Below are positions 3,446 to 60,840 of a stretch of 64,000 nucleotides of DNA, piece after piece. This stretch comes from Loripinus fragilis (Eukaryota > Mollusca > Bivalvia > Lucinida > Lucinidae). Made by a program: the position numbers and the translations under genes. The stretch spans positions 28,284,108-28,348,107 of the forward strand of contig OZ026530.1 in assembly GCA_964019695.1 (NCBI GenBank), given 5' to 3'. The notes beneath the pieces are model-generated. The model was not told the origin of the DNA. It worked only from the letters and a program-made list of their open reading frames with translations, and did no database searches. Every line of letters begins with the position of its first letter. The stretch's first letter is position 1.

Positions 3446-3979
3446 AATGGGTGGACAACGGACGAAGACCGATCACAAAAGCTCACCTTGTCACTATGTG
3501 ACAGGTGAGCTAAAAACACTTATGTGAAATTTTGCACAGGTTTATTTATTTTTTAAAATATCCTATAGTTGTATCTATTTATCACATGCTTTCTTTACCC
3601 CAATATAATCTTTTCTGTAAAAGTTATAATCTGTGTTGCTCCAAATATAAAATTCTCCATATGAAGGCGTATGGATGCTACTATGTACCAAAGACTATCC
3701 TTTTGTATACTAGTGACTGACTCCCAAATTTGTACTTCCGCAAACAGTGATGATCAGATGAAATGCTGGATGAATTCATCAGGGTCTACTCTGTTTGCTA
3801 AAACAAAAAGTTCTTTAGAAAAAAACAAAATTATTTGGAAATTATAACCAGTGACCCCTCCACATATACAATGGACCATCCCAAGTTTATTGTATCAAGC
3901 CAGAAGGAACTAGAAATGTGTCCATGGGACACGGATGCCCCCGCTATTGCCAAATTCGCATAAATAGGGCATTGTCATT

Positions 3980-4625
3980 AACAAAGGGCCATAACTCTAA
4001 TAATAATTGGTGGATTTTATCCATAATCTAACTTGACCTGTATTTTATGATTACATACCTGTGTATGAAATATGAATCCAATACAACAACGTATTCAAAA
4101 GATATCGCCCGGAAACCATTTTTCATAAGGAGATCAAGGGCCATAACTGTGATAATAATTGGTGGATTTTATCCGTAATCAAACTTGACCTGTATTCTAT
4201 GATTATATACCTGTGAATGAAATATGAATCCATTTCACCAATGTATTCAAAAGATATTGCCTGGAAACCATTTTTCGTACCGAGATCAAGGGCCATAACT
4301 CTGATGATAATCAGTGGATTTTACCCGTAATCGAACTTGACCTGTATTTTATGATTATATACCTGTGTATGAAATATGAATCCAATAAATAACTGTATTC
4401 AAAAGATATCGCCCGGAAACCATTTTTTATTCGGAGATCAAGGGCCATAACTCTGATAATAATTGGTGGATTTTGTCCATAATCGAACTTGACCTGTATT
4501 TTATGATTATATACCTGTGTATGAAATATGAATCCAATACCCCAATGTTTTTAAAAGATATCGCCCGGAAACCATTTTCGTACGTACGGGACGTACGTAC
4601 GTACGTACCTACGTATGTACGGACA
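3980..4625. repeat. ~158-bp tandem repeat, about four units
   Basis: Four units containing AAGGGCCATAACTCTGATAA, ACTTGACCTGTATTTTATGA and AAGATATCGCCCGGAAACC, followed by an (ACGT)n-like run (4583-4616) and a C-run. Non-coding; lies in SMU1 intron 8. Confidence 0.85.
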
Positions 4626-4712
4626 AGGGTGATGCTATATGCCCCCCCCCCCCCATTATAAATGGTGGGGGCATAATAATCCATTAGTGTATAAGGTGTT
4701 ACAAAAGATTAC

Positions 4713-4840
4713 CTGATACTTTGATCAAAGGATGCACTCAAAAGCTGTCCATTATCTTTAGAGAAATAAACACAAGTCACTCCTTTACTATGGGCTCTTT
4801 CAAACTTTCTTAAACACTGACCAGTCAAGATCTTCCAAAC
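4713..4840 (-). CDS. SMU1: SMU1 exon 8 (WD40), left-most copy with the donor
   Basis: 128 bases encoding [40 protein letters not shown] and SIR (last codon split). Matches the third WD40 blade of SMU1. Acceptor TTTCTCTTTCTAG, donor GTAATC. The first 91 bases and the acceptor also exist as 16 further tandem copies upstream in intron 7, but only this copy continues into the rest of the exon and a donor site, so it is the only one that can give a normal protein. Confidence 0.96.
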
Positions 4841-7800
4841 CTAGAAAGAGAAACATTATCTTTAGAGAAATAAACACAAGTCACTCCTTTACTATGGGCT
4901 CTTTCAAACTTTCTTAAACACTGACCAGTCAAGATCTTCCATACCTAGAAAGAGAAACATTATCTTTAGAGAAATAAACACAAGTCACTCCTTTACTATG
5001 GGCTCTTTCAAACTTTCTTAAACACTGACCAGTCAAGATCTTCCAAACCTAGAAAGAGAAACATTATCTTTAGAGAAATAAACACAAGTCACTCCTTTAC
5101 TATGGGCTCTTTCAAACTTTCTTAAACACTGACCAGTCAAGATCTTCCATACCTAGAAAGAGAAACATTATCTTTAGAGAAATAAACACAAGTCACTCCT
5201 TTACTATGGGCTCTTTCAAACTTTCTTAAACACTGACCAGTCAAGATCTTCCAAACCTAGAAAGAGAAACATTATCTTTAGAGAAATAAACACAAGTCAC
5301 TCCTTTACTATGGGCTCTTTCAAACTTTCTTAAACACTGACCAGTCAAGATCTTCCATACCTAGAAAGAGAAACATTATCTTTAGAGAAATAAACACAAG
5401 TCACTCCTTTACTATGGGCTCTTTCAAACTTTCTTAAACACTGACCAGTCAAGATCTTCCACACCTAGAAAGAGAAACATTATCTTTAGAGAAATAAACA
5501 CAAGTCACTCCTTTACTATGGGCTCTTTCAAACTTTCTTAAACACTGACCAGTCAAGATCTTCCATACCTAGAAAGAGAAACATTATCTTTAGAGAAATA
5601 AACACAAGTCACTCCTTTACTATGGGCTCTCTCAAACTTTCTTAAACACTGACCAGTCAAGATCTTCCATACCTAGAAAGAGAAACATTATCTTTAGAGA
5701 AATAAACACAAGTCACTCCTTTACTATGGGCTCTTTCAAACTTTCTTAAACACTGACCAGTCAAGATCTTCCACACCTAGAAAGAGAAACATTATCTATA
5801 GAGAAATAAACACAAGTCACTCCTTTACTATGGGCTCTCTCAAACTTTCTTAAACACTGACCAGTCAAGATCTTCCACACCTAGAAAGAGAAACATTATC
5901 TTTAGAGAAATAAACACAAGTCACTCCTTTACTATGGGCTCTTTCAAACTTTCTTAAACACTGACCAGTCAAGATCTTCCACACCTAGAAAGAGAAACAT
6001 TATCTTTAGAGAAATAAACACAAGTCACTCCTTTACTATGGGCTCTTTCAAACTTTCTTAAACATTGACCAGTCAAGATCTTCCACACCTAGAAAGAGAA
6101 ACATTATCTTTAGAGAAATAAACACAAGTCACTCCTTTACTATGGGCTCTTTCAAACTTTCTTAAACACTGACCAGTCAAGATCTTCCACACCTAGAAAG
6201 AGAAACATTATCTTTAGAGAAATAAACACAAGTCACTCCTTTACTATGGGCTCTTTCAAACTTTCTTAAACACTGACCAGTCAAGATCTTCCATACCTAG
6301 AAAGAGAAACATTATCTTTAGAGAAATAAACACAAGTCACTCCTTTACTATGGGCTCTTTCAAACTTTCTTAAACACTGACCAGTCAAGATCTTCCAAAC
6401 CTAGAAAGAGAAACATTATCCTTAGAGAAATAAACACAAGTCACTCCTTTACTATGGGCTCTTTCAAACTTTCTTAAACACTGACCAGTCAAGATCTTCC
6501 ACACCTAGAAAGAGAAACTTAACTAGAATTTGTGTTTGTGAAACACTGTGCCCCTAACAAATGCTTGTCCATTTTTTTAAGACCAGGGTTATGTTGTTTA
6601 AAGCTTCTAGCTAGTAGATCATATGGTGTAAACAACCCATATTGTACACATTGTATGCTAGTAGATACTATGTATATTATATAATATGCACTTATTATGC
6701 TGAACATGGCAATTTATAAGGACTGGCTAGGCCAAACAATTTTTTATATAACTTTGTTTTGGGTAACAGGTCTGATAATTTTAGATAGGGTGGGAACACT
6801 TTTTTTTTATTTTATTTTTTCATTCACAGAAATGCCTTTCAAAATGCATAAAATTATATGTTTTCCAGAAAACTTGAAAAAAAAAACCCTAGGTTTCACC
6901 AGTAAATTTTGGTAAGGTGGGGCTACTCAAAACAAAAGTATTTTTTTTTATTTGGCCAGTATCTTCCAATTCTTCATAAACTCTTTTTGAGCCCTTTGTA
7001 GACTGGAAACCCCTAAATGGGTACTTTTGCTGCCCTCTCTTTATCAGCCAGGTGTCCTGGCTCTACTAAGCCTTAATGTCACCCAGGTCCAGATAACCAA
7101 ATATTTTGACTGTAAAACTGTGGTTATTTTCTTTTCCATCAGTTTAAAACTGTGCTTTAGGGGCTTCTTTTGAGTACTCACAACATAATGTTTTGGTTGA
7201 GAAATAAAAAAAAAAATAACATAGATCTAGAAAAGCAAAATTATTTAGCATACATTTTTGTATCCACCAGTTTAAACATGTGTGTTGTGTGCTCAAAAGA
7301 ACCGTCTCCATGAGAGGGGACTTTTGAGAACCCACATCATACATTTTGATTGATAGATAAAAAGTTTACATGGGTCTAACGAAGCAAAATTTTTAGCATC
7401 AGGGCAAGTTTAAAAAAATGTGACCGTTCAATTTTTTAATCCCCATGCTCTTAATATAGAATATTTTTATTTAAATTTATCCCTCAAAGGTGTGTTCTGA
7501 TGCCCATTCATTTGTTACCAAATTTGAAATAAATCAAATGACAATTAAAAAAGATATGTCATTAAAACCACCCCAAAATGTCAGGAGTGTAACGCTTTTT
7601 GTGTGACATTTTTTCACCCTGTGAATGATCTAAGGAATATATTAGTAAACATAGTGATTTTACACCAGTTTAAGCTTTTGTATATCATAAATTGACATGT
7701 TGTAGATAAAATACATAAAGCAGGGCTCTTTATATAATCTACCTATTGATATAACTTGGCATTTTGGAGACATGCCGTTCAAAATTTACATGAGGTAAAA

Positions 7801-10800: not shown

Positions 10801-13800
10801 GAGTGAGTAACATACCCAATTGCTCAAAATTAATTAAGGTACTGAGCATACTAAAATAGTGATTATTTTCATAATCGTCCGTTTGAAATTGTGCTTTGGG
10901 TGCTCAAAAGAACCATCTCATTGAGATGGTTCTTTAGAGTACCCACAATATATGTTAAGGTTGAGGATTAAAACTAATTTTCAAACACATGCTGTTATCT
11001 GGAAGCCTGCATGATATATCACTTATACTCCAGGGCCCGGAATTACAATGCCTCCTTAGAGTTAAGGAGGACTTAAGTTAAGTATTGATATTTCAACATG
11101 CTATATTAGATACTAAATAAATTGCCTGGATCGATGCAGTACTTGTGGTCAAAGATACTATTGTGATCTACAGAAAAAATGAAACTATTTTGATTTAAAT
11201 CAGTTTGAAATGTTATTTTTCTCATCCTGAAAAATCAATACTTAACTAAGTCTTCCTTAACTTTAAGGAAGCCCAGGCCTTTAGTTAAGAGTGTGTACCA
11301 AAAAAATAATTTTCTTATTTCTCAACCAAAACATATCTTGTGGGTACTCAAAAGAACCGTCTCAATGAGACAGTTCTTTTGAGCACCCAAAACATATGTT
11401 TTAACTGATGGATAAGAAAATATTTACAATTATACGCTCAAAAATGTTGTTTATCTAAACCTATGTACTTACTTTAATTTTCCCGTCTTGTGAACCTGTG
11501 GCCAACATTTCTGAGTCTCTACTAAAACACATACACAAAACAGCATCGTCCATCATCATAAAATTATCCTGTGCCTGGTATCGCAGATCCTTTCTGATTT
11601 TCCCCGTCGTAAAGTTCCAAACTTCCACGAAGCCGTCCACCGAGCCAGTGACTAAATACTGGCCATCTGGTGAGAATCTTGCACACTCTATATGAGCCTT
11701 TTGTCCAAACTGTAGTGACAAAGATAGGACATTGCAAATTACTACAGAGCAGTCCCTTTCTAACACAGTTTTCGCTACAACACATTCATGTTGTGGCTCC
11801 CAATTTTTTGCTATGGAATTTTACAAAGGAATTATAGGAAAATGACCATGAAATGGTCATTTTCATATAATTCCTTTGTAAAATTGTTCCTTTATAACAA
11901 GGTTCACTTGTAACATGTTTAATTCCTATGGAACCAAAACAGAGCAATAAAGGGACTTCACAGTACATACATGTTAAGTCAACCATGGTTATGCTGTTGT
12001 ACATGTGTTGGTGCAAGTCACATTCAACAACCTTTCAGGTTTCATGTATATTACAACAGTCTAACAGTTATCATAGAATCATACTATTCTTACGAAGAAT
12101 GCTCTTTGTTCTTATTTTGCTACCGGCGACTTCTGTCAGGTGCTGATATTAAAACCGTTGAAAACAGTTTGGACTGAGATCAGGGCTGATCTAGAACCAA
12201 ACTGTTTGACACTCTAATAGAGTTTCTAAAAAACTTTGAAAAAAAAGGTTGGCAGACATCAAAAGGATATAAAACTACCCAGCATGCAAAGAGTTAAAGT
12301 TCTCTTAGAATAGTCTCCATGAAGTATGTGACCAGACCAGGGTTCAAACTCATAATTTTTAATTGCAGACCATAAGTTATATTCTCAATCTTGCTCACTA
12401 CAAAATGAGCTGTACTGACTGGTCAGCTGAAACATGATTTTTAGCAGGACTTAAATAACTTGTTTAAAACATGTACTTGGTTAATAATTGAAAATGGCAG
12501 TGGCCTAGAAAAAATACACACTAATATATCTTGAGGTCTGGCAATGGTAGCCATTTTTCTGGCAAGTGTGTAGCACGATGTTTAGAAAACTGAACCTGTT
12601 GAGCATCATATTAATTTACTCTGAAGGAAAAGTTAGTATAAATTCACATGATGAAAATACATACGCTAAATGAAGTAAAATTTTGATTACTAGTGGCCTG
12701 TCAAAAAAACCCTAGACAAACAGTGCAGACCCAGATCAGACTGATTCTGAAGAAGCAGTCTGATCAGTGTCTTCTCTGTTTGCTTTTCTGACAAGCATTT
12801 TGTGAATTCCAGTCCTGAAAACCAACATTTTATTTGAGAACAGAATGAGACAGTGTTAAAAAATTTAGACCAATTACTGTACCTTAATTGTTTTGCTAAG
12901 TTGTGTGGGATATTTTTCTTCTTCTTGTTCCTTTACTGCTGCTTTACCACGGAACACATCAATTGTCGTACCTGGAGAGAGAATAAATCTTATACAGTAT
13001 TAACACATCAATTGTCGTACCTGGCTAGAGAGTCAATCTTATACAATATTAAATGAAATAATCTTTATACCCCTGATATTAATAATTAAATGAACCAGAA
13101 ATCAAGACATTGGTAGTACTTATCCCTTATTGTGTTTGGAGGTAGCTAAGACTCAGACGAGCACAAGAAACTTTGCTGCTCTCATGCAAAAAGTATGAAA
13201 ATAGATGAGAAATCCGACCAAATTGACCATGACAAGAAGAAAACAAGACCAAACTCTGCTTTGGACCTGCGTCATCGGTGCACATCTTCAATGGGTGAAC
13301 AATCATTATGCAAAGTTTGAATATAAAGAAATGGAATCGGTTTGAATTAATTGCAGAATGCACACAAATAAACAATTTAAGCACTCCAAAGGTGGTGTAG
13401 ACATAATAATGTCTAAGTTACACAATCCCAAAAATATTATCAAATGTGCACAAAATATAGGGCGCACACATGTTCAATGTGTGAGCAATCATAATAATGA
13501 ACAATCATAACGTATTAAGTTTGAAGATTAAGGAATAAAAACTAATGGAGTCACAGATTACACAAACCAGACATCCCCTTAGCATTTCGGATGATAAAAT
13601 ATCTAAGTTCAACAGACCTACAAAATAAGAACAAATTTATCAAATGTGCACAAAATACGAGATGCACATTAGGGCTGGCTAATCGAAGCCACAATGCTAA
13701 TCGATAATCGGTCCTTGCATTTCGATATATAACCGATTAGTAATCGCTCAAACTTGACAGAGGGTCTCGGAACGTTTTGACAACTCTTGCATGGTCAACG

Positions 13801-16800
13801 ACATTGATTTTCCCATCATTTCACAAAACAACACTAAGTAGGACGTGTTATAGATTCAAAAGATAATAGGTTTTAAATAAAAAGTGGCACCTTTGCTCAA
13901 AACAAGTTGTCATCCACTCTGTTGGAAGAAAATTGAAAGAAAGTCGGTAATTGAACTCGTTGTCCGCCATTGTTTGTTGTTAATTTCGGCACGTTGCGTG
14001 ACGTCATACAAAAGGACCCCAAGTATGCATGACACGAACAACTTTGTGTAAAATAAGACCCACTGTAAACGTCGGTAAAATTGAAAGCTTCTAAACTCGA
14101 ATTTAACCGCGGAGAAAAACAACTTTCATGCTAGATTATTCATCTGATGAATTTTCTTGATTTTGTACTACTTTATTTAAAACAGAGGAGCGTAGGTATA
14201 ACTTTTTCTAACAATCAGTTGTTGAGTTAGCCTGCAGAGTACAACGTTTTACTACTTCGTTACAGCAATTTATACGCATCTACTGTTTACGACAATGCAC
14301 TTTACGGCACTTCCGGTTTAAATAGAAAATAAAAGGAGGCAATTACGCTTGGATTTTAATTGAATAAATAGACAAAACATACATTAAAAGTAACCGATTT
14401 TTGAATTTTCATATCGATAATCGTTTTTCTTTTGTGTATCGACCGATTAACCGATGTTTCGATTAATCGTGCCAGCCCTAATGCACATGTTCAATGTATG
14501 AATAATCATTATGTAAAGTTTGAATATTAAGGAATTAAAAATTTGGTGTTACAGATTACACAAACCAGACACCCTCTAAGCATTTTACAGAAAAAAAGTC
14601 GAAGTTCAAGACCGCAAAAAATGAAAAAAAAAATCATGAAATGTATACAAAATAGAAGGTGCACAACTTCAATGTATGAACAATCATTGTGCAAAGTTTG
14701 AATATAAAGGAATGAAAACTGTTGGAGTTACAGATTACACAAACCAGACACTCCCTATGCATTTCGGATGGAAAAAATGGGTAAGTTCAACGCCTGTGAA
14801 AAATGTTAAGATATTTATAAAATGTGCACAAAATAGGAGGTGCACATCTTCAATGTGTGAACAGTCATTATGCAAAGTTTGAATATAAAGGAATGAAAAC
14901 TATTTGAGTTACAGATTACACAAACCTGACACCCACTACCCATTATCAATGGAAAAAATGTCTAAGTTCAACACCCGTAAAAAATAAGAAAATATTTATC
15001 AAATGTGCACAAAATATGAGGTGCACATCTTCAATGTATGAACAATCATTAGGCAAAGTTTGAATATAAAGGAATGGAAACTGTTGGAGTTACAGATTAC
15101 ACAAACTAGGCACCCCAAAAGTGTTGCTGACAGATAGACGGACGAACAAACAAACAGACGGAAGGAGTGGACCCACTACTAGACCTGCTTTCTCTAAGGC
15201 AACACAGGTAAAAACTGATTTTGTTGCACGCAGACAACAAAAGCAGACCAGCCTCTGCATCTGTGCAATCTCATCAGTACCTTTATCATGGACTGCATTA
15301 AAACTCCATTCGTTACAAGCAAAATTTCAATATTCTAGCTAGCCTCTGTAACTGAGCAGGCTGGTTTGAACATTACCTGGTTGCATTCTCCAAAAACAGA
15401 TTTTCTTGTGTGATGAGGCCCAAATATGTCCTCTAGCAGCTTACAATAGATAACTGCATTTTTGTTAACACTTTCCTTGCTAGCAGCGGCTTTTAATGTC
15501 TGCTAATAACCTTTACAAACAGTTTGGACCCAGATCAGGACAGACATAACACTGGTCCTGATCTGGATCCATACCATTTAAACCTGCATGCTCAGCTATC
15601 TAGTGGGGCTAGAGGACTAACTTTCGGCCTGAATCTTTATCTAGACCCTAACTAATTGTGTGCGAGCAGGAAGGGATCTGGCAAGTATGGGTAGTCTCGC
15701 CTGAGCCTTAGCTGTTACATGTGTTAAGTATCCTAATCTCATGACCAGGTTCTGACAGTTATTATTTTATCCTGTGGTCAAATTATAGCCTCACTTCACA
15801 TGTACTCAAATGACAATGTAATATATTGGTATGCGTTTATCGTAATAGCTAGGTCAGGGAATGTAGGAGTGAATTTAATTGACCAGTCATTATCTTCAAA
15901 TATTTAAGCCTAAATTTTAAACTAAAGAATATAATGTGAAGTAAATGTTTACCTTTAACCACCAATTAACAATGTTAAACCAATAAGCATTTTGTTTCCT
16001 GAAAAGCCCTAAACAGGTACTTTGACCAACAGTGAAGACGCAGATGAAAAATGTCCCACATTGTGGCATATCATCTTGGTCTGCACTGTTTGCAAAGACA
16101 AAATCCACCTTCAAAGAATTTCAATTTTGAAATTATAACCTGTGGCCCCTCAATATAAACAATGGATAATCCTGACTTAACTATATCAAACTTTATGGGA
16201 AATTCCATTGTTCTACAAAGGGTTGTCATGTCTAAAAGCTCACCCACCTGGAGGAAGCAATCCTTGATGCTGTTGCCACTTCAATGCCTGACCTAAGAGA
16301 GCTAGGAGACGAGAGGGTGGTACAACATTTACCTCCCCTGACAGAGCTGCAGCAATGGCTGCCCTTCTTCTTTCCTTAGTCTGGCCATCAGCATAGGCCT
16401 ACAAATATACAGTCCACAATGTAAAGTACAGAAGATCAGAAGATGTACATTTAGAACAGCTCAAGAGATTTTGGTATTTCATCAAGAGATTAATAGGAGA
16501 GTGTACCATCAAAAACAAATTTTCTTTATTTCTCATCTAAAACATGTGTTGTGGGTACTCAAAAGAACCGTCTCAATGAATACGTTCTTTTGAGCACCCA
16601 AAAAACATGTTAAAATTGATGGATTAGAAAATATTTACAATTTTATGCTAAAATATTGTCTATCTTGACCTATGCTAGATCATATTTGTAAAATCATACT
16701 TTAAACAGGCATACATAGCTATTTAGTAAGACTAGACCCTTCAAATGTGGCCAGCACCTTCATCAATGTCCCTACTTGTGTGTGCGTGTAGTGAAGGCTT

Positions 16801-19800
16801 TGGTGAGACTGAACTGTCTGTTAGGACAAGTTTGTAGCTGCACTCATATGGATAAGTATCAACATCTCCTGAGCATGACTTCATCACCTTCATCAATGTC
16901 CCTACTTTGCATGTGTATGTAGTGAAGGCTCTGGTGAGACTGAACTGTCTAATAGGGCCGGCTTGTTGCTGCACTCATATGTGATAAGTATCAATGTCCC
17001 TACTTTGCTGCATGAAGTGAAGGCTCTGGTGAGACTGGACTGTCTCAGGGTTCGTATTTTAGCTCTCATACTGGCAAAATGCGAGTTAAAAAAGCAATTA
17101 GCGAGGTGGTATTTTCTCTACTTGCATTTTCTTGCGAGTGGAAATTTGGGGCTGTTATCAGTGGTTCTTATCCTAGATATAAATCTTCTCTCCAGTTTCC
17201 TTAAATGTCCTTCATTTCCTTTTTATCCATCGGAAAAACCCTGTCAATGGCAGAGGTTTACATTGGATACAACCTCAATGCGCAGACGCATACTATAAAC
17301 TCCCCAGCATGGTCGGGTCTCAGCCAATCATATGCTTTCTAATTTTAGATTGTAACAAATATTCACAAGTGGGTAGTTCGTTAGGTCATTGGATTTTTGC
17401 GATCTAAAATTAGAAGGCTATTTTTACAGCGCAATACGATTGGACAAAACCAATCTTTTTCTTTCTAGAATTCTTTTTTTAAAAGAAATGAGGGAGTCTT
17501 TTTCTTTTCATGTAAAATCGTCCATGCATATGACAGGAAAGCTAGGATTGAACCCTCAGACATTGGAAAGGCATACAGAAAATGGATTTGACTAACTCCC
17601 TGAAATGACAAAACTCTTTAAAACAGCATAATATGTTGCACAATCTGAAAGACCATTCTCTGATATTCCAGCCTTTGTAGAGTTGCAGCCTTAAACTACT
17701 CAGAGTTAATTTACCAATACCTTTAAAACAACAGCTTATTTCTGAATTTCTGTTCATTAAACTAAAATGTAGAAAATGCAAGTTGTTTTTCCATTTAGCA
17801 AGTAGCCAAAAAATTCACTTGCGAAAATATGCAAGTTGAAATCTGGCTAGATTCGAACTCTGCTGTCTGTTAGGGCAGGCTTGTTGCTGCACTCATATGT
17901 GATAAATATCAACATCTCATGATCAGGCTCACATAAAAAGATGAATTGCAATGTTATCTTGTAATAAAATGAAATTTTGGTTCTTATTGCATATAGCCTT
18001 CAGCTAAGGCCTAGAAAAGCCAGTACAATTGGTCAAGGTGCAGTTTTTTTGCCCATTATAAACCGATATTGGGTCGTGTTCCCAATGGCAAAAAGTATGT
18101 TTTTCCCCAATTAGAGGGTCACTGATGACGTCTTAAAGGCAGAAACTAGCTAGTCTGGCCCAGGAAATATGCACACTCTAGTTTCAGTTCTTTGGTGCAG
18201 TCTTTGCTTCCAAAGGATACCCTTAAAGAACATATTTGGAGAAAATTCCCTATTCAGGGAACAAAAAAATTATCACCATTTTGTTACATCTTTACTGCAC
18301 TGTACCCGCCGAAATTGTATTTTTGCATTCCAAAATTTGAAATGTGCTTATTAGTAAACCAAATATTTGATTTTTTGGGTTATTTGATTATATTATACAA
18401 CTTGTTTGTTTTTTGACTGATTCCTTAAGTCCCATCAACAATCTTTCAGTTAAACAGGGACGGGTCTTCCTGGGTTGAACCAGTACTAAGCTAGGATAAA
18501 TGTGTCTTGCTTAAGGACCACAACACAGTGACGCCGGTGAGGCTCTAACCAGCAGCCCCTTTGTCTCGAGTCAAGCACTCTATCACTGCGCTCCCTTATA
18601 CAACTTGTGAGTTTTTCCCAATTTGGTAAACAACAGTGCGCCAAATTCCCAATTCTCGGGGTCGAATCAGGTTCCTGTAATGGGGAGAAAAAGCCCTGAA
18701 CTGTTATGCTTGTAAACATAACTGGAATCCTGTGAGTTAATAAGATTTAAATTGGGGAAGAATGTATATAAGTATGCAGCATGGTAATATTTAATTGTCC
18801 CATAGATGTTATATGAGCATCAATGCAAGAAAACCTGACTTTGTTGCAGTCTGATCAGCACCTTCCCAATCTAGAATGTACAGAAGTCAAGTTTTCTCTA
18901 TGCAAAATTTCAATATTCAAGATAGTTTCGGTAGCTGAGCATGCATGCGCGGATCCAGAAAGTTTTGTCAGAGGGGGTCCAACTTTGACCTTTTTTTGTT
19001 GTTTTTTTAGATGATGAGGGGAGGGAGAATCCAGCGAAATGCCATTAAATGGGGTTTCGCTGGCGTGCCGATGATGGCCCAACATTGAATACTTGCTTGT
19101 TTAAAGTTAGCTTTGTGATTTTTCAGGAGATCCTGACCAGTATTGCTAAGAAACCCTATATTTTTGTGAATTTACAGGGGGTCCAGACCTCCTGTCCCCC
19201 CCTCTGGATCCGCCTGTGGCATGTAGCTTTGAGCCTTACTTGGTCACAAACCACAAAGACATGTTTTATTGCGCCTAGACTCTCATATTGTTTTTTCATG
19301 CATACCTCTCTGGGATCAAAGTAAGATCTGGCTAACATGTTCTCCAGATGGATATATCTGTCTGGCTGGTTATGTTTCATCATGATCATAGGATCTGTCT
19401 GTCTCAGTAGAGACCTGGCAGCACCCAGTTCTCGTAACTCAATCAACTCTAAAACAATCTGAAAATAGATGGGATCAAAGTAAGATCTAGCTAACATGTT
19501 CTCTAGATGGATGTATCTGTCTGATTAGTTATGTTTCATCATGATCGTAGGATCTGTCTGTCTCAGTAGTGACCTGACAGCACCGAGTTCTCGTAACTCA
19601 ATCAACTCTAAAACAATCTGAAAACAGATGGGACCCTAAAACTTGGCACACACTATCTTCTTATTGACTAATATATTTCCAATAATGCTATGGTGCATGT
19701 TTTGTTTGTGGTTTGTTAGCATCCCACTCAACAGCTCTATAATCATGCCGAGACAGTCAGTTAACCTACTGTAACCACATTTTTTTCCTAGACATGCATA

Positions 19801-22800
19801 TACTAAACGGTTAACCAATACTGATTGTAGTACGAGGCCTGGCAATGGTTGATATTAGAGTATATCTCATGTAAAATACCCATACAAAACTTCCATAGGC
19901 AAGAGTAAATGTATATATGATATTACAAGAATCTGTCGCGTGTGTGGGATAGAAAAATCCATCTGGATGATCATCCTTTGGCATCACAAGGCATGTGGTG
20001 TGATGAGAGATCGTGGGGGATTATAAGAATCTATCATAAGTGTGAGGGTAGGATAGAAATAATCCGTCCTGAGGATCGCCGTTTGGCATCACTCGGCTTG
20101 CCGAGTGATTTGTTTGTTTGTTTGTTCGGTGCTTAACGACGCATCAACCCTTGTGGGTCATTAGCGTCAGATGGTATTAAACTAAACATGATGTGGATGG
20201 AAAAAGTAAAAATTTGTACGATGCTTGCCGAGTGATGACAAACGGTGATCCCAAGAGACGGATTCTTCTATCCTACCCTCACACGAATAATGGATTCTTT
20301 TTCATGCTCACTACTGTTTGTTTATTTTAAAATTAGCTTCCAGAAGTCCCTGAATACGCTAAGACGCAATTCACATGATGACTTCACTTTAACATAACAA
20401 TGACGTCACTTGACGACCATGTGCGTGAGTTCCAATACAACCACTGTATGTATCCCTCATGTGACAGCCTGGGTAAGATTTTCTACCCCAGGGTAAAATC
20501 TCAGATATCCTTATCCGGTGTGCAAGAAAGCTTTTTCTATCCCTTCCTCACACAAATAATGGATACTTTTTCTTGCTCATCATTTAATTTCACATTTTTT
20601 TTATCTGAAAAAGCCCCCCGAAGTTTCTGATTGTGCTGAGATGGAACACTACTTGATGATGTCACTTTAGGATAGCAATGGTAATTGTCAACAACAAGGT
20701 GACCCTGTCAACAACATGGTTACCCTGTCAACAGTAAGGCGACCCTGTCAACAACAAGGCGACCCTGTCAACAACAAGGTGACCCTGTCAACAGCAAGGC
20801 GACCCTGTCAACAACATGGCGACCCTGTCAACAACAAGGTGACCCTGTCAACAACAAGGTGACCCTGTCAACAACAAGGTGACCCTGTCAACAACAAGGC
20901 GACCCTGTCAACAACAAGGAGACCCTGTCAACAACAAGGTGACCCTGTCAACAGCAAGGCGACCCTGTCAACAAGTTTACCAGGCAAGGCTTTGAGATTG
21001 CTTGGTGATATCGCCAGGCTTGCCGAGCGATTCAACATGTGTTCTCAAAGCCAAGCCTGGTAAACTTGATATCAAAAGACATGAACCTGGTATTCTATTT
21101 ATCAGTTTACCCATTGTTTCACTCTTCAAACTAGCGATAATGACGTAATTTTTTATTTTTGTGTTGATTCAGCGTCTTAAGCAACGTCATTCAAAAAGTG
21201 CAATGTTAGCATGACCTGATAAAGGCACATGCTGTGAGATAGACAAGATTATCAGGCAACTTGCAACAATACAGTTATTATGAGAGGTAAAATGTTATGT
21301 CAGACCTACCTACCCTAATTTTGGGGGAGGTTAAACGGGAACAAAATTATGTTTTTTGGCTCAACCTATGTTTTAGTCTAGAATTATTTTTATTCGCCTG
21401 GCATGTACATCTGAAGGTCTGTCGAACATGTATACCTGTTCATAAAGATCTATGAGTTTCTGATCAGGAAGTTTCAAAGACTGTATAGCCTGTAGTACTG
21501 TATCCCAGTGTCCGCTAGTAATGTCTGAGACAAACCCGTCCACAGAGTCAACAGTGTTCAAAGATATACCACTTTCTTCCTGTAATAAATAAGAAAATTT
21601 CATCAGGTCAGGGCTCTCACACCCCTTTTTGGAAATGGGACCTGGGCCCATGGAATTGGGAAAATTAGCGGCGTTTTGACTCAAATTGGGAAATTTGACA
21701 TTGCCCTTATGTATGACATCAAATATAATGCTATAATAAATGTTAATTAGTATACTATGAGAAAAGGGAGAGAAAGAAGATACTGTGATTGTATTCTAAT
21801 ATTCTGTGAAATTGTAATTATGTAACAATATGTTCTGTATTTTTATTATATGAAATAAAGATGGAAAACAAAAAAAAAAAACAAAAAAAAATTGGTCAAA
21901 TTGGGATTTTTTTTGTCTGAAATTGGGAAAAACATACTTTTTGTCATAGGAATTGTGGCCGAATTTCGGCCCGAAAATTGGGTGATCAAGAGCCCTGCAG
22001 GTATAAATTCAATAGAACTCAGCAATACTAAAATTTCTTCCGTTCATCACCCACCTTTATTCCTAAGGGAGCACAGTGACTCAGTGGTAGAGTGCTTGAC
22101 TCGAGACCGAGGGGCAGTGGGTTCGAGCCTCACCGACGTCACTCACTGTGTTGTGTCCTTAAGCAAGACACATTTATAATTATTTATCCAAGCCTAGTAC
22201 TGGTTCAACCCAGGAAGACCCATCCCTATATAACTGAAAGATTGTTGATGGGACGTAAAGAATCAAATAAAAATAACAACAAAAAACACCCAAAAACACT
22301 TTTATTCCTAAACTCATCCCCACAAATGCACAACATGTCTCGTTCCCTTATAAAGTATGAGTGCCGTTTGATCAATGTAACCCTTTTTTGGTAGTAGACT
22401 AGTAGTGTACACTTTTGAAAAATGAAATTTCAATGAAAATGAAAAATGCGATTTCTAGGGGAGTTTTTTTGGCAATGGGACTGAATGTAGCAACTGCAAG
22501 AAAAATACAATGTATATACAATGTATATGTAGACCTACAGGACCAAGGTGGCCAATCATGTTTGGTACATGTATGCCAAATATTTTTATGTACTACACTC
22601 TTCCCCCATTCTTACCCTGTTAACCTGCAGCATTCAAGTTATAAACATGTATTTTCAAGCAGAGAGGAAAACAATGTTGATCCTGATTAGATGGCTTCAT
22701 GAGAAGTCAGCTGATCTGGATCTACAGTGTTTCCAAAAAAGGATAAATCTGGTTCAGCAGGACAAGGGTTAGATTATTTTGTGCTAGTATTCTGACAACA

Positions 22801-25800
22801 CCAGCAACAAAATCAGCCATAACTTTCTTATTGCTGAATGGATTTGCACGAAATAAATTGCAGATATCGGGGATTTCCTATTTTTTTTAAATCGGGGGCC
22901 AGCAGCCTATTGAATTTGGAAAAAAGCATTCGGATCACCAAAATTGGGAAGTTTGATCCTATCTTAAAGAACTGGACTGCCATTTTAAATACAAATGTAG
23001 ATTAAAAAGCATATTATAAGAAATAAGCAGTGTAAAGCATTTGTTGCTTTAAATGCCCTTCATAAAAATTCATATAAAATGTTAAAGAAAATATGTTTTC
23101 ATTCACATGTTTATGCCAATTTTCATGCATCTGTAACAGCTATTTTTGTTCAGATTTTCATGAAATTTTCACCAGAATGTAGAACTAAGAAATTTGGAAT
23201 GATAAAATTTTAAGGATAAACACCATTTTGGGAAGTTTTTGCTCATTTTTACATTGGGAAGGGACTGATATTTGGATCCAAAGCAGGCCTATGAAAATGG
23301 CTGGATACATACCTCATTGTCACCTGTAATATTATTATTAGCAAAATGAAGATTTTTTTGCCAACGAAGTGTAAAATTTCAGACCATGATGTGCAAATTA
23401 TTTCTGAATTGGGTAACTGATAAAACTATAGTGCAAATGAAACTTAACTCTTTCATAAGTCTGAAGAATAATGCTCCTTCTAACAGCATAAAAAGTACTT
23501 TTACTCTTAAATTAGTTTTACAGACTGTTTTATATCTGTTACTGTAGATCCTCAGAAACACAATGACATGCATATATACTTTCTTGGACCTAACCTTTTC
23601 CAGATACCTCTCAGCCCTCCAGATAATCAGGGCTTTTTTGAGCAATTTTGGGAAAAGGCCCCTGGCCAACATAGGGAAAAAGATCGACTTAACATCAAAA
23701 TTGGGAGAAATAAACAGCACAGAACATAACAAGAATAGCAAAATATATCCTCAAAATCAAGTTATTTTAGATTGTATTATACCAAGCATACATGTACCAC
23801 TTAAGCACAAGTGCTTAAAGCTGCATAGTCTGTAACTTTTGATCTTTTAATTTTAGAACTAATGTTTCTATTTTTCAAGAACACAGTAAAAAAACTAAAA
23901 TTCAGGTATACATTTTACCAATTTCGTAAATCTTAACAAAGTATCAGTATCGAAACAACAGCATTTATATTAAAATCAACTGTCTACAGTTATTGGAGGG
24001 ACGCAAATAATTATCGACACGAGTAAAACACACCTGTTTTATAGGATAATTCACTTTTCCGTGCAGTTTTCCGCTCTAGTGAACAGATTAATTGTGAAAA
24101 CATAACTTAATTCACCTTTTACAAATGATTTAAAAAGAAAATAAAATTTTTCGAAAAATGTTCATAGTTACAGAGTATGCAGCTTTAAGTATCATTCTGA
24201 TATGGGTCATTGTTTCTCATAAGTAGTAGGTCTCTAAAAAAAGTATAAAAAAAATGTTGTTTTTTTCCGCCCCTAGAGATGGGCAGAAAATCCCCTGGAT
24301 AATGGTGCATAATTGATTTTTTTTCTATTTCACAACCAAAACATATGTTGTGGGTACTTAAAAGACAAGTCTCAATGAGACTGTTCATTTGAGCACCCAA
24401 AACAAATGTTAAAACCAATGGATAAGAAAATATTCTCAATTTAACTCCCGAAAATTTGGATTTCCCGACCTATGCATCTTTTTACCAGGACTTTAGTTAA
24501 GAGTGTGTAAGGAAAATTTAATTTTCTTATTTCTCAACAAAAACATATGTTGTGGGTACTCAAAAGAACCGTCTCAATGAGACGGTTCTTTTGAGCACCC
24601 AAAACATATGTTAAAACTGATGGGTAAGTAAATATTTACAATTTTACGCTGAAATTTATTGCTTAGGCCTAAATGAAATATATGTGTGGTTCCTGTTGCA
24701 TACCAACAAAAATTTAGGGTAGGTAGGTAGGGAAATTATTAAATTTTGTTATAACATTTAACAAAGACAATAGAGACAAAATCTGAAAAAGTGCCCATTT
24801 TAGGTATTTATCTCCGAAGACCATTTTAATGTTTAGGGTAGGGTGAAAAAAATTAGGGTATGGTAGGCAACAGGAACCACACATACATTTCATTTAAGCC
24901 TTATCTAAAACTATGTTTTACATACCTGAAGGACAGACAAAGTTTTCATCAGATTGTTCTCCTTCAGGTACTGCTCTATAAGACGAACCACACTGAAAAA
25001 AAGAAGATTTTTTAACCCTTTGTATTTGGGAAACCTCTAAATGAGAACTTTTGCAAATGAGCTGTGACATGTGTGATTTCCAACAATGTGGCTTTTTGAC
25101 AAGTGCAGACTCAGACAAGCCTGTGCAGCCTCCTTTAAGCTTAGAATCTCAAAATTGTGTTCAGTCAGTAGCTTAGAAGTCATAGATTATTCAAGTGACT
25201 AGCAAAGGCTCTGATCAGACTGCGCATATGCGCAGGCTGATCTGAGCCTTTGCTGATCGCACATACCACTGTATTACCACATTGTTGGAAATCTCATGTC
25301 GCGGCTCAAATAGCGAAGGCCCAGATGAAATGCAGCACAATGATCCATAAAAAAGGCAAAGCAATGCACACAAAAGGGCATAATTTCCAAATTTTTAGAC
25401 AGCCAGGGCTCTCACAACTATTATGGAAATGAGGCCCCGAGATACCAGTGCTGGAAGTTTCTACTCATCCGCTCCCCATGGTGAGTGCCTAGACTTTATG
25501 ATTAGTTAACTTTTTAATCTGCTTGTACTGCATGGCTAACTGTTAATTGCTTTCAGAAAGGATTAAATTTATTGACAGTGCAGTAAAGTCACATACAAGC
25601 AGGAATTGGATCCATTTTATCTGATAACACAGTAATTGAATCGTTAAGTCCACTGACCTAATATTTACAGGTGGTTGACAAAACATGGACCGTCACTGAC
25701 TCACGGACTACCATAAAACCACAAACCAAAGTACAAAACACGGACCAAAGTACAAAACATGAACTAACGGATCAATATTCACGGACTGATCTGACAAGAC

Positions 25801-33979: not shown

Positions 33980-36900
33980 AAAGGACCAGTGTCTATAAGG
34001 CCTGTTTCACGGCCACTATGAATTTCCTTTAAACTTTGTGTAATAAAAGTAGCATGTCTTGGCTGTAATATCATAAAATGTTGGATCAATAGATGAAGTT
34101 TTCTGAGTTGTATACTCATTTGAAGTGGGTGGAGTAATTCCACCCCAAACAGGGTTACGCTACGAAAACGACTATATTTTTTATAACCATATGTAGCTGG
34201 GGATCAGCCATTTCAAGATTATTTATGGGATAACAGATATTAAAACTGACACCTATGATGTTTTAAAATATTTTTAAATGATAAGTATTTATTCACTTGA
34301 AAGTCATACCAATATTTTAGTATTTTTTCTTCTCCAACTTTACGCAAAACCACAACATCTTATCATACTTGAATGGATTCAATTGATGTTTAGAGGTAAC
34401 ATAGTATATATGATGGTAATTATAAAATTATGAGGAATTGTTACCATGGTGATCACTTAAAGAATTATCTGCCCACAAAACCAGCAATTTTTATTTTTTC
34501 ATTTTTTAAGAGTGGGTATACATGCATTAGAGATTTTAGATACATCATTGCTTCTAGGTTACACAATGATTGGTCATGGTGTCTAGAATAAAACAAAGGC
34601 TTCAGATAGCTGACATGACCTTGTGTACAAAGGTCAAGGTCACACATACTTAGAACTTGTCTATGGCTCAAACCGCGAGTACCTCTTTCATTTTTTTGGA
34701 TCTAGTGTGTACATATTCGCCACAATGATTGTCTATTATGTGTAGATTATAAAAAAAGTCTCAGAATATACATATGACCTTAAAATCAAGGGACAAAGTC
34801 AAATATTCTTATAAAACTGTCACACTGCTCATAATACTTAACTCCTCTTTGGTGTATTGATGGGATGTGTTCATATTTAGCACAACAATTGCGTATGATG
34901 TGTAGATTAAAACAAAGGTTTCAGATAGCTGATATAACCTTTTGGTCAAACGTCAAGGTCACACATACTTAGAACTTGTCTATGGTTCCAAACGTGAATA
35001 CATCTTTCACTTTTTGATCTAGTGTGTACATATTCGCCACAATGATTGCCTATCATGTGTAGATTAAAACAAAAGTCTCAGAATATGGATATGACCTTGA
35101 AATCAAGGGTCAAAGTCAAATATTCTTAAAACTGTCACACTGCTCATAATACAAACTCCTCTTTGGTGTATTGATGGGATGTGTTCATATTTAGCACAAC
35201 AATTGCATATGATGTGTCGACTAAAACGAAGATTATCGATAGCTGATATGACCTTGTGGTCAAAGGTCAAGGATAAACATACTAAAAACCTGTAAAATTG
35301 CTCGAAATCCAAATGTCTTCTTCATTTATTTTGACCGAGGGTGTTCAAATTCGCTCCAATGTTTGCATATCATGTGTTAATTGCATCAAATGTCTCGGAA
35401 TATATTTATGACCTTGAAGTTAAGGTTCAAATTCAAATATTTTTTAAAATCTGTCTTACGGCTCTTAACACAAACACCTCATGCATGCATTGATGGAGTG
35501 CATTCATATTTAGCACAATGATTGCTTATGAAGTGTAGTTTAAAACCGAGGTTTCATATTGCTGATGTGACCTTGAAATCAACGTCAAAGTTGCACTTGC
35601 AAAAACCTATGTACAGTTCATACTGAGAGTTCCTCTGTCATTTCTTGAGCGAGAGTGTTCATATTTGGAAGAATGATTGCCTATGGTATGTTGTTTGTTT
35701 GATTTGATCCTTTTTATCCAAGTCAATATTTTTCAGTCAAGTCATGTCAGGATGGCTCTCACTGGGTTGAACTGGCACTAAGCAGGATTTAATGTGTCTT
35801 GTCTGTCATGTCTTTTTCTTGCAATCTTGTGGTCACCTGTTGGGCAAGGGCTGACCTTGTATGTGATGTTTTCTTGTGTTTATATCACCTTCCCATACTG
35901 TGCCCTGGGTCATGTGTGGAACTTGATTGTATCGATTCCTGACCTTTGCCTTCTTCTTTACTATTCTCAAGGACTATATGCAGTTCCACCTGTGAGGCTC
36001 AAAGCTGCGACCCCTCTATCTCGACTCAAACACTCTACCACTGGATATTGCACAGGCAGATTGGTCATGTGTGGAACTTGATTGTATCGATTCCTGACCT
36101 TTGCCTTCTTCTTTACTATTCTCAAGGACTATATGCAGTTCCACCTGTGAGGCTCAAAGCTGCTACCCCTCTATCTCGACTCAAACACTCTACCACTGGA
36201 TATTGCACAGGCAGATTGTGTGGTGATTACGATAAAAGTTTCAGATTACTGCTATGACCTTGGAGTGAAAGTTCTAGGTCAAATATATCTTACAAATGTT
36301 GACGTGAATTCTTTTTTAATTTTTGTTAGAGGATGTCCATATATAGCGAAATTATTTCTTAAGGTGGGTACATTAAAATGAAGGTTTCAGAGAACCAATA
36401 TGACCTTGGGATCAAAAGTCAATGTATTTAGAATCGGTCCTACAGCTCGCAACATGAACTTCTGTAGTCTTTGATAGAGGTTCTATGAATGCAAATTAAT
36501 TTTATAAATACATGTATATTACCAGGTTGCTTCGCTTCTAGTGCCACTCCTCTTACTTTTTCAATGGAGGATATTCATATTTGCAACAGTGTTTGTCGAA
36601 GGTATGTAGATGACAAGAAACTCTGTTTTCCAGTCAAAGGTTAAAAATTTAAAACTCAAAATATTCAAAAATATTTAAACTTGTAAAGTGAGTATCCTTT
36701 AATACTCGTAGTTTTGATGAAGATTATATATGTTTTGCGCACTAATTGACAAAATATGTAGATATCATCAATGGTTTCAGGTCGCTGCTATGACATATGA
36801 TTTAAAGGTCAAGGTCAAAGTATTTGCATTTAGAGCAATTGACAGGTTTTAAGTATGTGTGACCTTGACCTTTGAGCACAAGGTCATATCAGCTATCTGA

Positions 36901-59369: not shown

Positions 59370-60840
59370 AAGTGGAATTTCAAAGGTTATTTCCCAAGGT
59401 AAGAATATATACCATAGGAGCAGTAGATTTATGTGAGAAGAGCAAACTTTCCTCATAAGAGAGCTCTAAAAATCGGTTGGTGACTAGGTCACATGTCATT
59501 TCCCAGAAGAGGAAACAAGAAGTTCCCCAGAAGTGGAAAAAGGTATTTATCTGGTATAAGGTAATTTTGAGATTGCCCAGGAGGCGGAAACGATTTTCCC
59601 AGAAGTGGGAAAAGTATTTACCTGGTAGAAGGTTATTTTCAAAGGTAAAAATATATATCATAGGAGCTGTAGATTTATATTGGAAGAGCAAACTTTTCTC
59701 ATAAGAGAGCTCAAAAATCGGTTGGTGACTAGGTCACATGTCCGTTCCCCAGAAGTGGAAATATGAAGTTCCCCAGAAGTGGAAAAAGGTATTTATCTGG
59801 TATATGGTACTAATTGAGATTTCCCAGGAAGGGGAAGCGAGTTCCCCAGAAATGGGAAAAGTGTATTTATCTGGTAAAAGGTAACAATTTGAGATTTCCC
59901 AGGAAGTGGAAACGAGTTCCCGGGAAGTGGAAATGGTATTTAACTGGTAGAAGGTTATTTTCAAAGGTAAGAATATATATCATAGGAGCTGTAGATTTAT
60001 GTGAGAAGAGCAAACTTTCCTCATAAGAGATCTCAAAATTCGATTGGTGACTAAGTCACATGTCATTTCCCAAGAAGGGGAAACATGAAATTCCCTTGAA
60101 GTGGAAAAAGGTATTCATCTGGTATCAGGTTATAATTGAGATTGCCTAGGAAGTAGAAACGAGTTCTCCCAGAAGTGAGAAAAAGGTATTTACCTGGTAG
60201 AAGGTTAATTCCAAAGGTAAGAAAACATAACATAGGAGCTGTAGATTTATGTGGGAAAAGCAAACTATCCTCATAAGAGAGCTTTAAAATCGGTTTGTGA
60301 CTAGGTCACATGTCCATTCCCCAGAAGTGGAAATATGAAGTTCCCCAGAAGTGGAAAAAGGTATTTATCTGGTATATGGTGCTAATTGAGATTTCCCAGG
60401 AAGGGGAAGCGAGTTCCCCAGAAATGGGAAAAGTGTATTTATCTGGTAAAAGGTAACAATTTTAGATTTCCCAGGAAGTGGAAATGAGTTCCCGAGAAGT
60501 GGAAATGGTATTTAACTGGTAGAAGGTAACAATTGAGATTTCCCAGGAAGTGGAAACGAGTTCCCCGGAAGCGGAACGTGGTATTTACCTGGTAGAAGGT
60601 AATATTTGAAATTTCCCAGGAAGTGGAAACGAGTTCCCCGGAAGTGGAAAATGGTATTTACCTGGTAACAATTGAGATTTCCCAGGAGTGGAAACGAGTT
60701 CCCCGGAAGTGGAACGTGGTTTACCTGGTAGAAGGTAATAATTGAGATTTCCCAGGAAGTGGAAACGAGTTCCCCGGAAGTGGAAAAAGTTATTTACCTG
60801 TTAACAGATAATAACTGAGATTTCCCCGGAAGCGGAAGTC
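59370..60840. repeat. Compound minisatellite of TTCCCAGGAAGTGGAAACG units
   Basis: Short units of TTCCCAGGAAGTGGAAACGA, GTTCCCCGGAAGTGGAAA and TATTTACCTGGTAGAAGGT, about 80 bp each, embedded to about 60300 in higher-order units of roughly 300 bp that also hold ATAGGAGCTGTAGATTTAT and TTGGTGACTAGGTCACATGT. Beyond 60450 only short units remain. The GGAAGT core resembles an ETS site by chance or design; non-coding. Confidence 0.88.

Follow-up and report, generated by a model that had tools for sequence, protein, structure and literature searches.

A seventeen-unit minisatellite across the exon 8 acceptor of SMU1 in the bivalve Loripinus fragilis

Introduction

In the bivalve Loripinus fragilis, the SMU1 transcript would present the spliceosome with a row of acceptors in front of the single donor of exon 8. 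Two readings suggest themselves: the array may be a device by which the gene controls its own splicing, or it may be a minisatellite that happens to lie across an intron–exon boundary. Here, the question is approached through the anatomy of the array, the consequences of entering each acceptor, and the frequency of comparable repeats at other splice sites and in other genes. The window analyzed is a stretch of 64,000 nucleotides (contig OZ026530.1 of assembly GCA_964019695.1, positions 28,284,108 to 28,348,107, forward strand); coordinates refer to this window unless stated otherwise, and negative coordinates lie beyond its left edge.

Anatomy of the array and of SMU1

TRF detects an array of period 104 with 17.0 copies at window 4750-6518 (98% matches, 0% indels, score 3433). 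When the minus strand is cut at TTTCTCTTTCTAG, the array falls into exactly 17 units (window 4750-6517), with 16 of 16 spacings equal to 104 nt. Every 104-bp unit lies across the intron–exon boundary, with TTTCTCTTTCTAG supplying 13 intron nucleotides and the start of SMU1 exon 8 supplying 91, all on the minus strand. In a tblastn search with human SMU1 (a query sequence that aligns with PDB 5o9z_L over 1-513), all 17 units align at SMU1 residues 290-319. Unit 17 alone extends through the remainder of exon 8 to the donor (ATCAG/GTAATC); there is therefore one authentic copy of the boundary, with the others on its intron side. Both the phased 17-unit structure proposed in the initial annotation and its remark that only the copy nearest the donor is complete are thus borne out by TRF, unit splitting, and tblastn. 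The unit 1 acceptor is preceded by AGTTAAG and those of the other units by GATAATG. The features of the array are as follows:

4713 to 4840, minus strand: SMU1 exon 8, the sole complete copy, 128 nt, 43 residues (unit splitting, tblastn, gene model)
4841 to 4853, minus strand: unit 17 acceptor TTTCTCTTTCTAG, closest to the donor (unit splitting)
4854 to 6517, minus strand: 16 upstream units, each an acceptor with 91 nt of exon 8, without exon remainder or donor (TRF, unit splitting)
6505 to 6517, minus strand: unit 1 acceptor, first in transcription order (unit splitting)

The array occurs at a single place in the 1.99-Gb assembly, the one assembly searched. High-identity SMU1-like exons are likewise confined to this locus, and the other matches in the assembly are WD40 sequences of 19-37% identity. 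Some 60-130 bp past the exon-8 donor, a separate repeat of 152 bp x3.9 followed by CGTA repeats and a C run (window 3984-4655) resembles the tail of a dispersed element.

Provided that the exon-1 candidate is correct, SMU1 has 12 exons on the minus strand, of which the array exon is the eighth. Exons 9-12 fall beyond the left edge of the window, with exon 12 about 20.8 kb from that edge. The exons upstream of the array are as follows:

29727 to 29752, minus strand: SMU1 exon 1 candidate (MAVEIESA), donor GA/GTAAAA (motif pattern only)
24926 to 24992, minus strand: SMU1 exon 2 (tblastn, gene model)
21436 to 21579, minus strand: SMU1 exon 3 (tblastn, gene model)
19306 to 19458, minus strand: SMU1 exon 4, functional copy (tblastn, gene model)
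16248 to 16398, minus strand: SMU1 exon 5 (tblastn, gene model)
12883 to 12971, minus strand: SMU1 exon 6, functional copy (gene model)
11473 to 11709, minus strand: SMU1 exon 7, donor AAA/GTAAGT (gene model)

Measured up to unit 17, intron 7 is 6632 nt long. Among the best 120 of 1355 matches to the spliced protein, the closest named proteins are those of Ruditapes philippinarum (94%), Dreissena polymorpha (94%), and Mactra antiquata (93%), which makes a heterodont bivalve the most likely source; the same 120 include a 490-aa SMU1 that is 99% identical to the spliced product and is encoded on a 1688-base contig. There, exons 7, 8, and 9 are each read once in the normal frame, and the contig is too short to be genomic DNA of this gene.

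Acceptor strength and coding consequences

Entry at any of the 16 upstream acceptors is predicted from the sequence to give the same first stop, a TGA 39 aa past the junction and 112-1672 nt ahead of the exon-8 donor. A stop that far ahead of a donor predicts nonsense-mediated decay (NMD) by the usual rule, and alternative use of the array would thus introduce an NMD-type stop, as a poison exon does. The in-frame TGA foreseen in the initial annotation is accordingly found for all 16 acceptors. Its description of the acceptors as "strong" goes further than their pyrimidine content: between -23 and -4, the last acceptor of the array has 12 of 20 pyrimidines, as against 11-15 in the ten other acceptors of SMU1, though its longest pyrimidine run in this interval, at 10, is second only to that of exon 2 (12).

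Other duplicated splice sites in SMU1 and elsewhere

Exon 8 is not the only exon of SMU1 with a repeat at its start. Of its 11 acceptors, 4 lie at tandem arrays, whose units of 159, 49, 104, and 22 bp bear no relation in length, and 0 of 10 donors fall within TRF arrays of period at least 15, the class in which the four acceptors are found. The donor of the exon-1 candidate, added later, has no spanning repeat in the BLAST control described below. Two of the additional arrays lie in the window:

19471 to 19629, minus strand: exon-4 acceptor decoy with 147 nt of exon, 159-bp unit x2 at 93%, in-frame TAA (TRF, tblastn); the duplication spans 19311-19633
13002 to 13032, minus strand: exon-6 acceptor decoy with 19 nt of exon, 49-bp unit x2 (TRF); the duplication spans 12953-13052

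The array at the exon-12 acceptor (22 bp x3.1, window-relative -20794 to -20727) ends at the AG and contains zero exon bases. Stops or frameshifts would also follow on entry at the exon-4, exon-6, and exon-12 decoys, as at the upstream units of exon 8.

Another gene was reached through a WD40 match elsewhere in the assembly. Among natural proteins of the PDB it matches FBXW7 best (E 1.3e-113), with designed WD40 proteins scoring higher, and it is not known to encode a splicing factor. One of the six FBXW7 exons found (matches above 55% identity) carries the mirror form, in which the exon end and its GTAAGT donor are repeated (128 bp x2.8 at 92%, positions 926-1291 of the FBXW7 stretch); the donor of the third copy is damaged. 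Boundary-spanning arrays are thus present in two genes, at acceptors in SMU1 and at one donor in FBXW7. A restriction of such duplications to acceptors, suggested by the SMU1 counts, was dropped on account of the FBXW7 array. About 300 bp past an FBXW7 exon, the intron holds a further repeat of 182 bp x3.0 at 100% (positions 3498-4043 of that stretch).

Boundary duplication is not present in every gene, given the parts of CLTC examined. Among 28 CLTC matches, 27 of them at one locus, none repeats most of the query part of another, a comparison that small duplications would escape. Three weaker matches at about residues 80-231, with overlaps of up to 32 residues and with stops inside them, may be intron overhangs. 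The DNA of five CLTC exons has no direct repeat of at least 18 bp within about 65 bp of the ten match ends, which approximate the splice sites. In a WD40-like gene on C2 (exons WD40-like by eye; 37% identity to SMU1), a 22-bp x2 repeat at 100% (positions 210-254 of its stretch) lies just upstream of an acceptor and may duplicate the branch region; the AG is outside it, hence its exclusion from the counts.

Background frequency of repeats

Over 304 kb, 7.9% of the sequence lies in TRF arrays; for the SMU1 span the share is 9.6%. Two controls, both devised after the pattern had been seen, address whether splice sites are hit more often than this background would give. In a BLAST control for same-strand repeats within 2.5 kb, such repeats span 3 of the 22 SMU1 splice sites (3 of 11 acceptors and 0 of 11 donors, exon 12 not being counted as spanning) vs 43 of 300 random gene positions. 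When acceptor positions were shifted circularly relative to the TRF arrays, at least four hits occurred in 0.9% of shifts, with a mean of 1.06 (P = 0.009). Taken together, repeats fall on SMU1 splice sites at about the rate seen elsewhere in the gene, and a preference for acceptors is possible, though unproven.

Other repeats of the region include nested tandem repeats of 73, 250, 322, and 572 bp at window 59383-60837; a 155 bp x2 repeat at 99% (window 35908-36218), apparently a recent duplication; and a C2H2 zinc-finger-like tandem array with a period of 84 bp, as judged by eye, at window-relative 268567-270090. In the right-hand neighbor of the window, for which the longest ORFs were considered, a 56-bp x2 repeat lies inside an apparent reverse-transcriptase fragment (by eye). 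A Pfam scan of two window stretches found no family.

Changes among the copies

The 17 units differ by at least six changes at five unit positions, all of them exonic and none in the 13 intronic bases. As classed by eye, five of six are synonymous in the exon-8 frame (chance P 0.001-0.007, depending on the mutation model); counted by sites, four of five are (P 0.006-0.020, if the sites are independent). Private changes number one in unit 1, none in unit 17, and one each in the internal units 5 and 7. Between the exon-4 decoy and its functional copy there are six synonymous and four nonsynonymous changes, one of the four being the stop, and in FBXW7 the changes are synonymous in 5 of 7 cases for copy 2 (2 nonsynonymous) and 3 of 6 for copy 3 (3 nonsynonymous); changes on the functional side are counted in as well, and the numbers are too small to discriminate between models.

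A synonymous excess is unexpected for non-coding units unless exchange passes them through the coding position. A contraction by unequal exchange may place any unit beside the exon tail, where it would be coding and selected. Alternatively, the excess may stem from selection on how the units are used.

Origin and significance of the array

The exon-8 array is most likely a greatly expanded minisatellite of the kind termed a mirage, probably neutral and, we infer, spliced mainly at the donor-proximal acceptor. Its history would have begun with a duplication that took in 13 nt from the end of intron 7 and 91 nt from the start of exon 8, followed by growth to 17 units through unequal exchange or slippage. 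Because a duplication of the acceptor and exon start keeps an intact exon beside the donor, exon definition would favor unit 17, from which the exon is 128 nt long, vs 232-1792 nt from the upstream acceptors. With exon 7 joined to the donor-proximal acceptor, the normal mRNA would persist, and some transcripts may be spliced to upstream acceptors and degraded by NMD. Seventeen near-identical acceptors facing one donor also constitute a natural test of 3' splice-site choice, since usage along the array should differ according to whether exon definition, first-come-first-served scanning, or a kinetic model applies.

An autoregulatory array, in which high (or low) SMU1 activity would direct splicing to upstream acceptors and the resulting NMD-sensitive mRNA would set the SMU1 level, is unlikely. 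The uniform stops behind all 16 upstream acceptors and the mostly synonymous changes among units are what such a device might show. On the other side, stops or frameshifts are predicted at the decoys of three other exons (4, 6, and 12) too, FBXW7, which is not known as a splicing factor, bears a mirror-type array, and one of the two controls found no excess over background. SMU1-specific regulation, the first reading considered, was lowered by the FBXW7 array and the random-position control. The initial annotation had left the choice between a decoy or poison-exon regulator and a neutral VNTR, and it is the latter that the comparisons support better: three other SMU1 acceptors and an FBXW7 donor are duplicated with other unit sizes, the exon-4 decoy has a stop of its own, and the BLAST control lacks an excess. 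The other control, by circular shifts, did give an excess at acceptors. A regulator is the less supported of the two readings. One study describes human Smu1 both as a regulator of alternative splicing and as a general splicing factor (PMC6692369). Because SMU1 is itself a splicing factor, leakage into the upstream units could feed back on its level; such feedback through the array is not likely, and is testable. Overall, there is a small chance that the array has a regulatory role.

A real copy number far below 17 is highly improbable. Tandem repeats are hard to assemble, and this one is known from one place in one assembly; the differences at five unit positions, however, follow no period across the units, which simple stuttering would not produce, and SMU1 also holds duplications whose copies have diverged (93% and 90%). 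The least probable reading is recursive splicing, in which CTAG/GTRTGG would act as both acceptor and donor and 104-nt pieces would leave stepwise, yielding the same mRNA whichever unit was entered. By an approximate matrix, TAG/GTATGG scores 7.2 and TAG/GTGTGG 6.4, vs about 5-10 for SMU1 donors, and A or G occupies +3 in 13 of the 17 units. Joining to exon 7, however, turns the site into AAA/GTNTGG, which scores 1.2-5.5 by that approximate matrix, and the coding unit bears the weak GTTTGG; another donor-like site within the unit, CTG/GTCAGT, scores 6.6 on the same approximate scale. The 104-nt "intron" of a dual site would have a donor-to-branch distance of about 70-90 nt, as judged by eye. 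In the human substrates MINX90 and MINX120, this distance is 66 and 96 nt, and splicing slows as it shrinks within that range (PMC6692369). A splicing switch that is sensitive to SMU1 and tuned by copy number, to which each unit adds an NMD-feeding decoy acceptor or an AG/GTR dual site, is a very unlikely reading of the array; were it correct, the number of repeats would set SMU1 output and vary among animals.

Comparison with known systems

The array shares features with several known systems. Poison exons and NMD-coupled autoregulation likewise involve a stop-introducing splice choice in the gene of a splicing factor; unlike them, the SMU1 array has no separate cassette exon. Introns are reportedly also gained by tandem genomic duplication of segments with AGGT, and here too the tandem units hold AG/GT; unlike in that process, the SMU1 duplication covers an existing acceptor.

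The closest parallel is found in amphioxus, where minisatellites over intron–exon boundaries, or mirages, are described in Adh3, the globins BflGb6 and BflGb9, and TnC, with a similar case in PGBD5 (PMC3087553; PMC3902484). According to these reports, mirages affect either exon end and differ in length between haplotypes, and RT-PCR shows splicing to be undisturbed (PMC3087553); in BflGb6, the 3' end of the intron and the 5' part of exon 2 are repeated (PMC3087553; PMC3902484). As described there, the amphioxus mirages and the clam arrays are alike in being boundary-spanning tandem repeats at either exon end, with one authentic copy, in several genes. They differ in host, a cephalochordate vs a mollusc, and in size, the two BflGb6 haplotypes having 6 and 3 units vs 17 in SMU1 exon 8. 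The clam is further set apart by four affected acceptors within one gene, known here from the DNA of one assembly. A literature search that reached few subscription papers found no mirage of this kind in molluscs. The SMU1 array is an unusually long mirage, of the kind reported from amphioxus, in a bivalve. With four SMU1 acceptors and an FBXW7 donor added by this animal, mirages may be frequent in genomes rich in tandem repeats.
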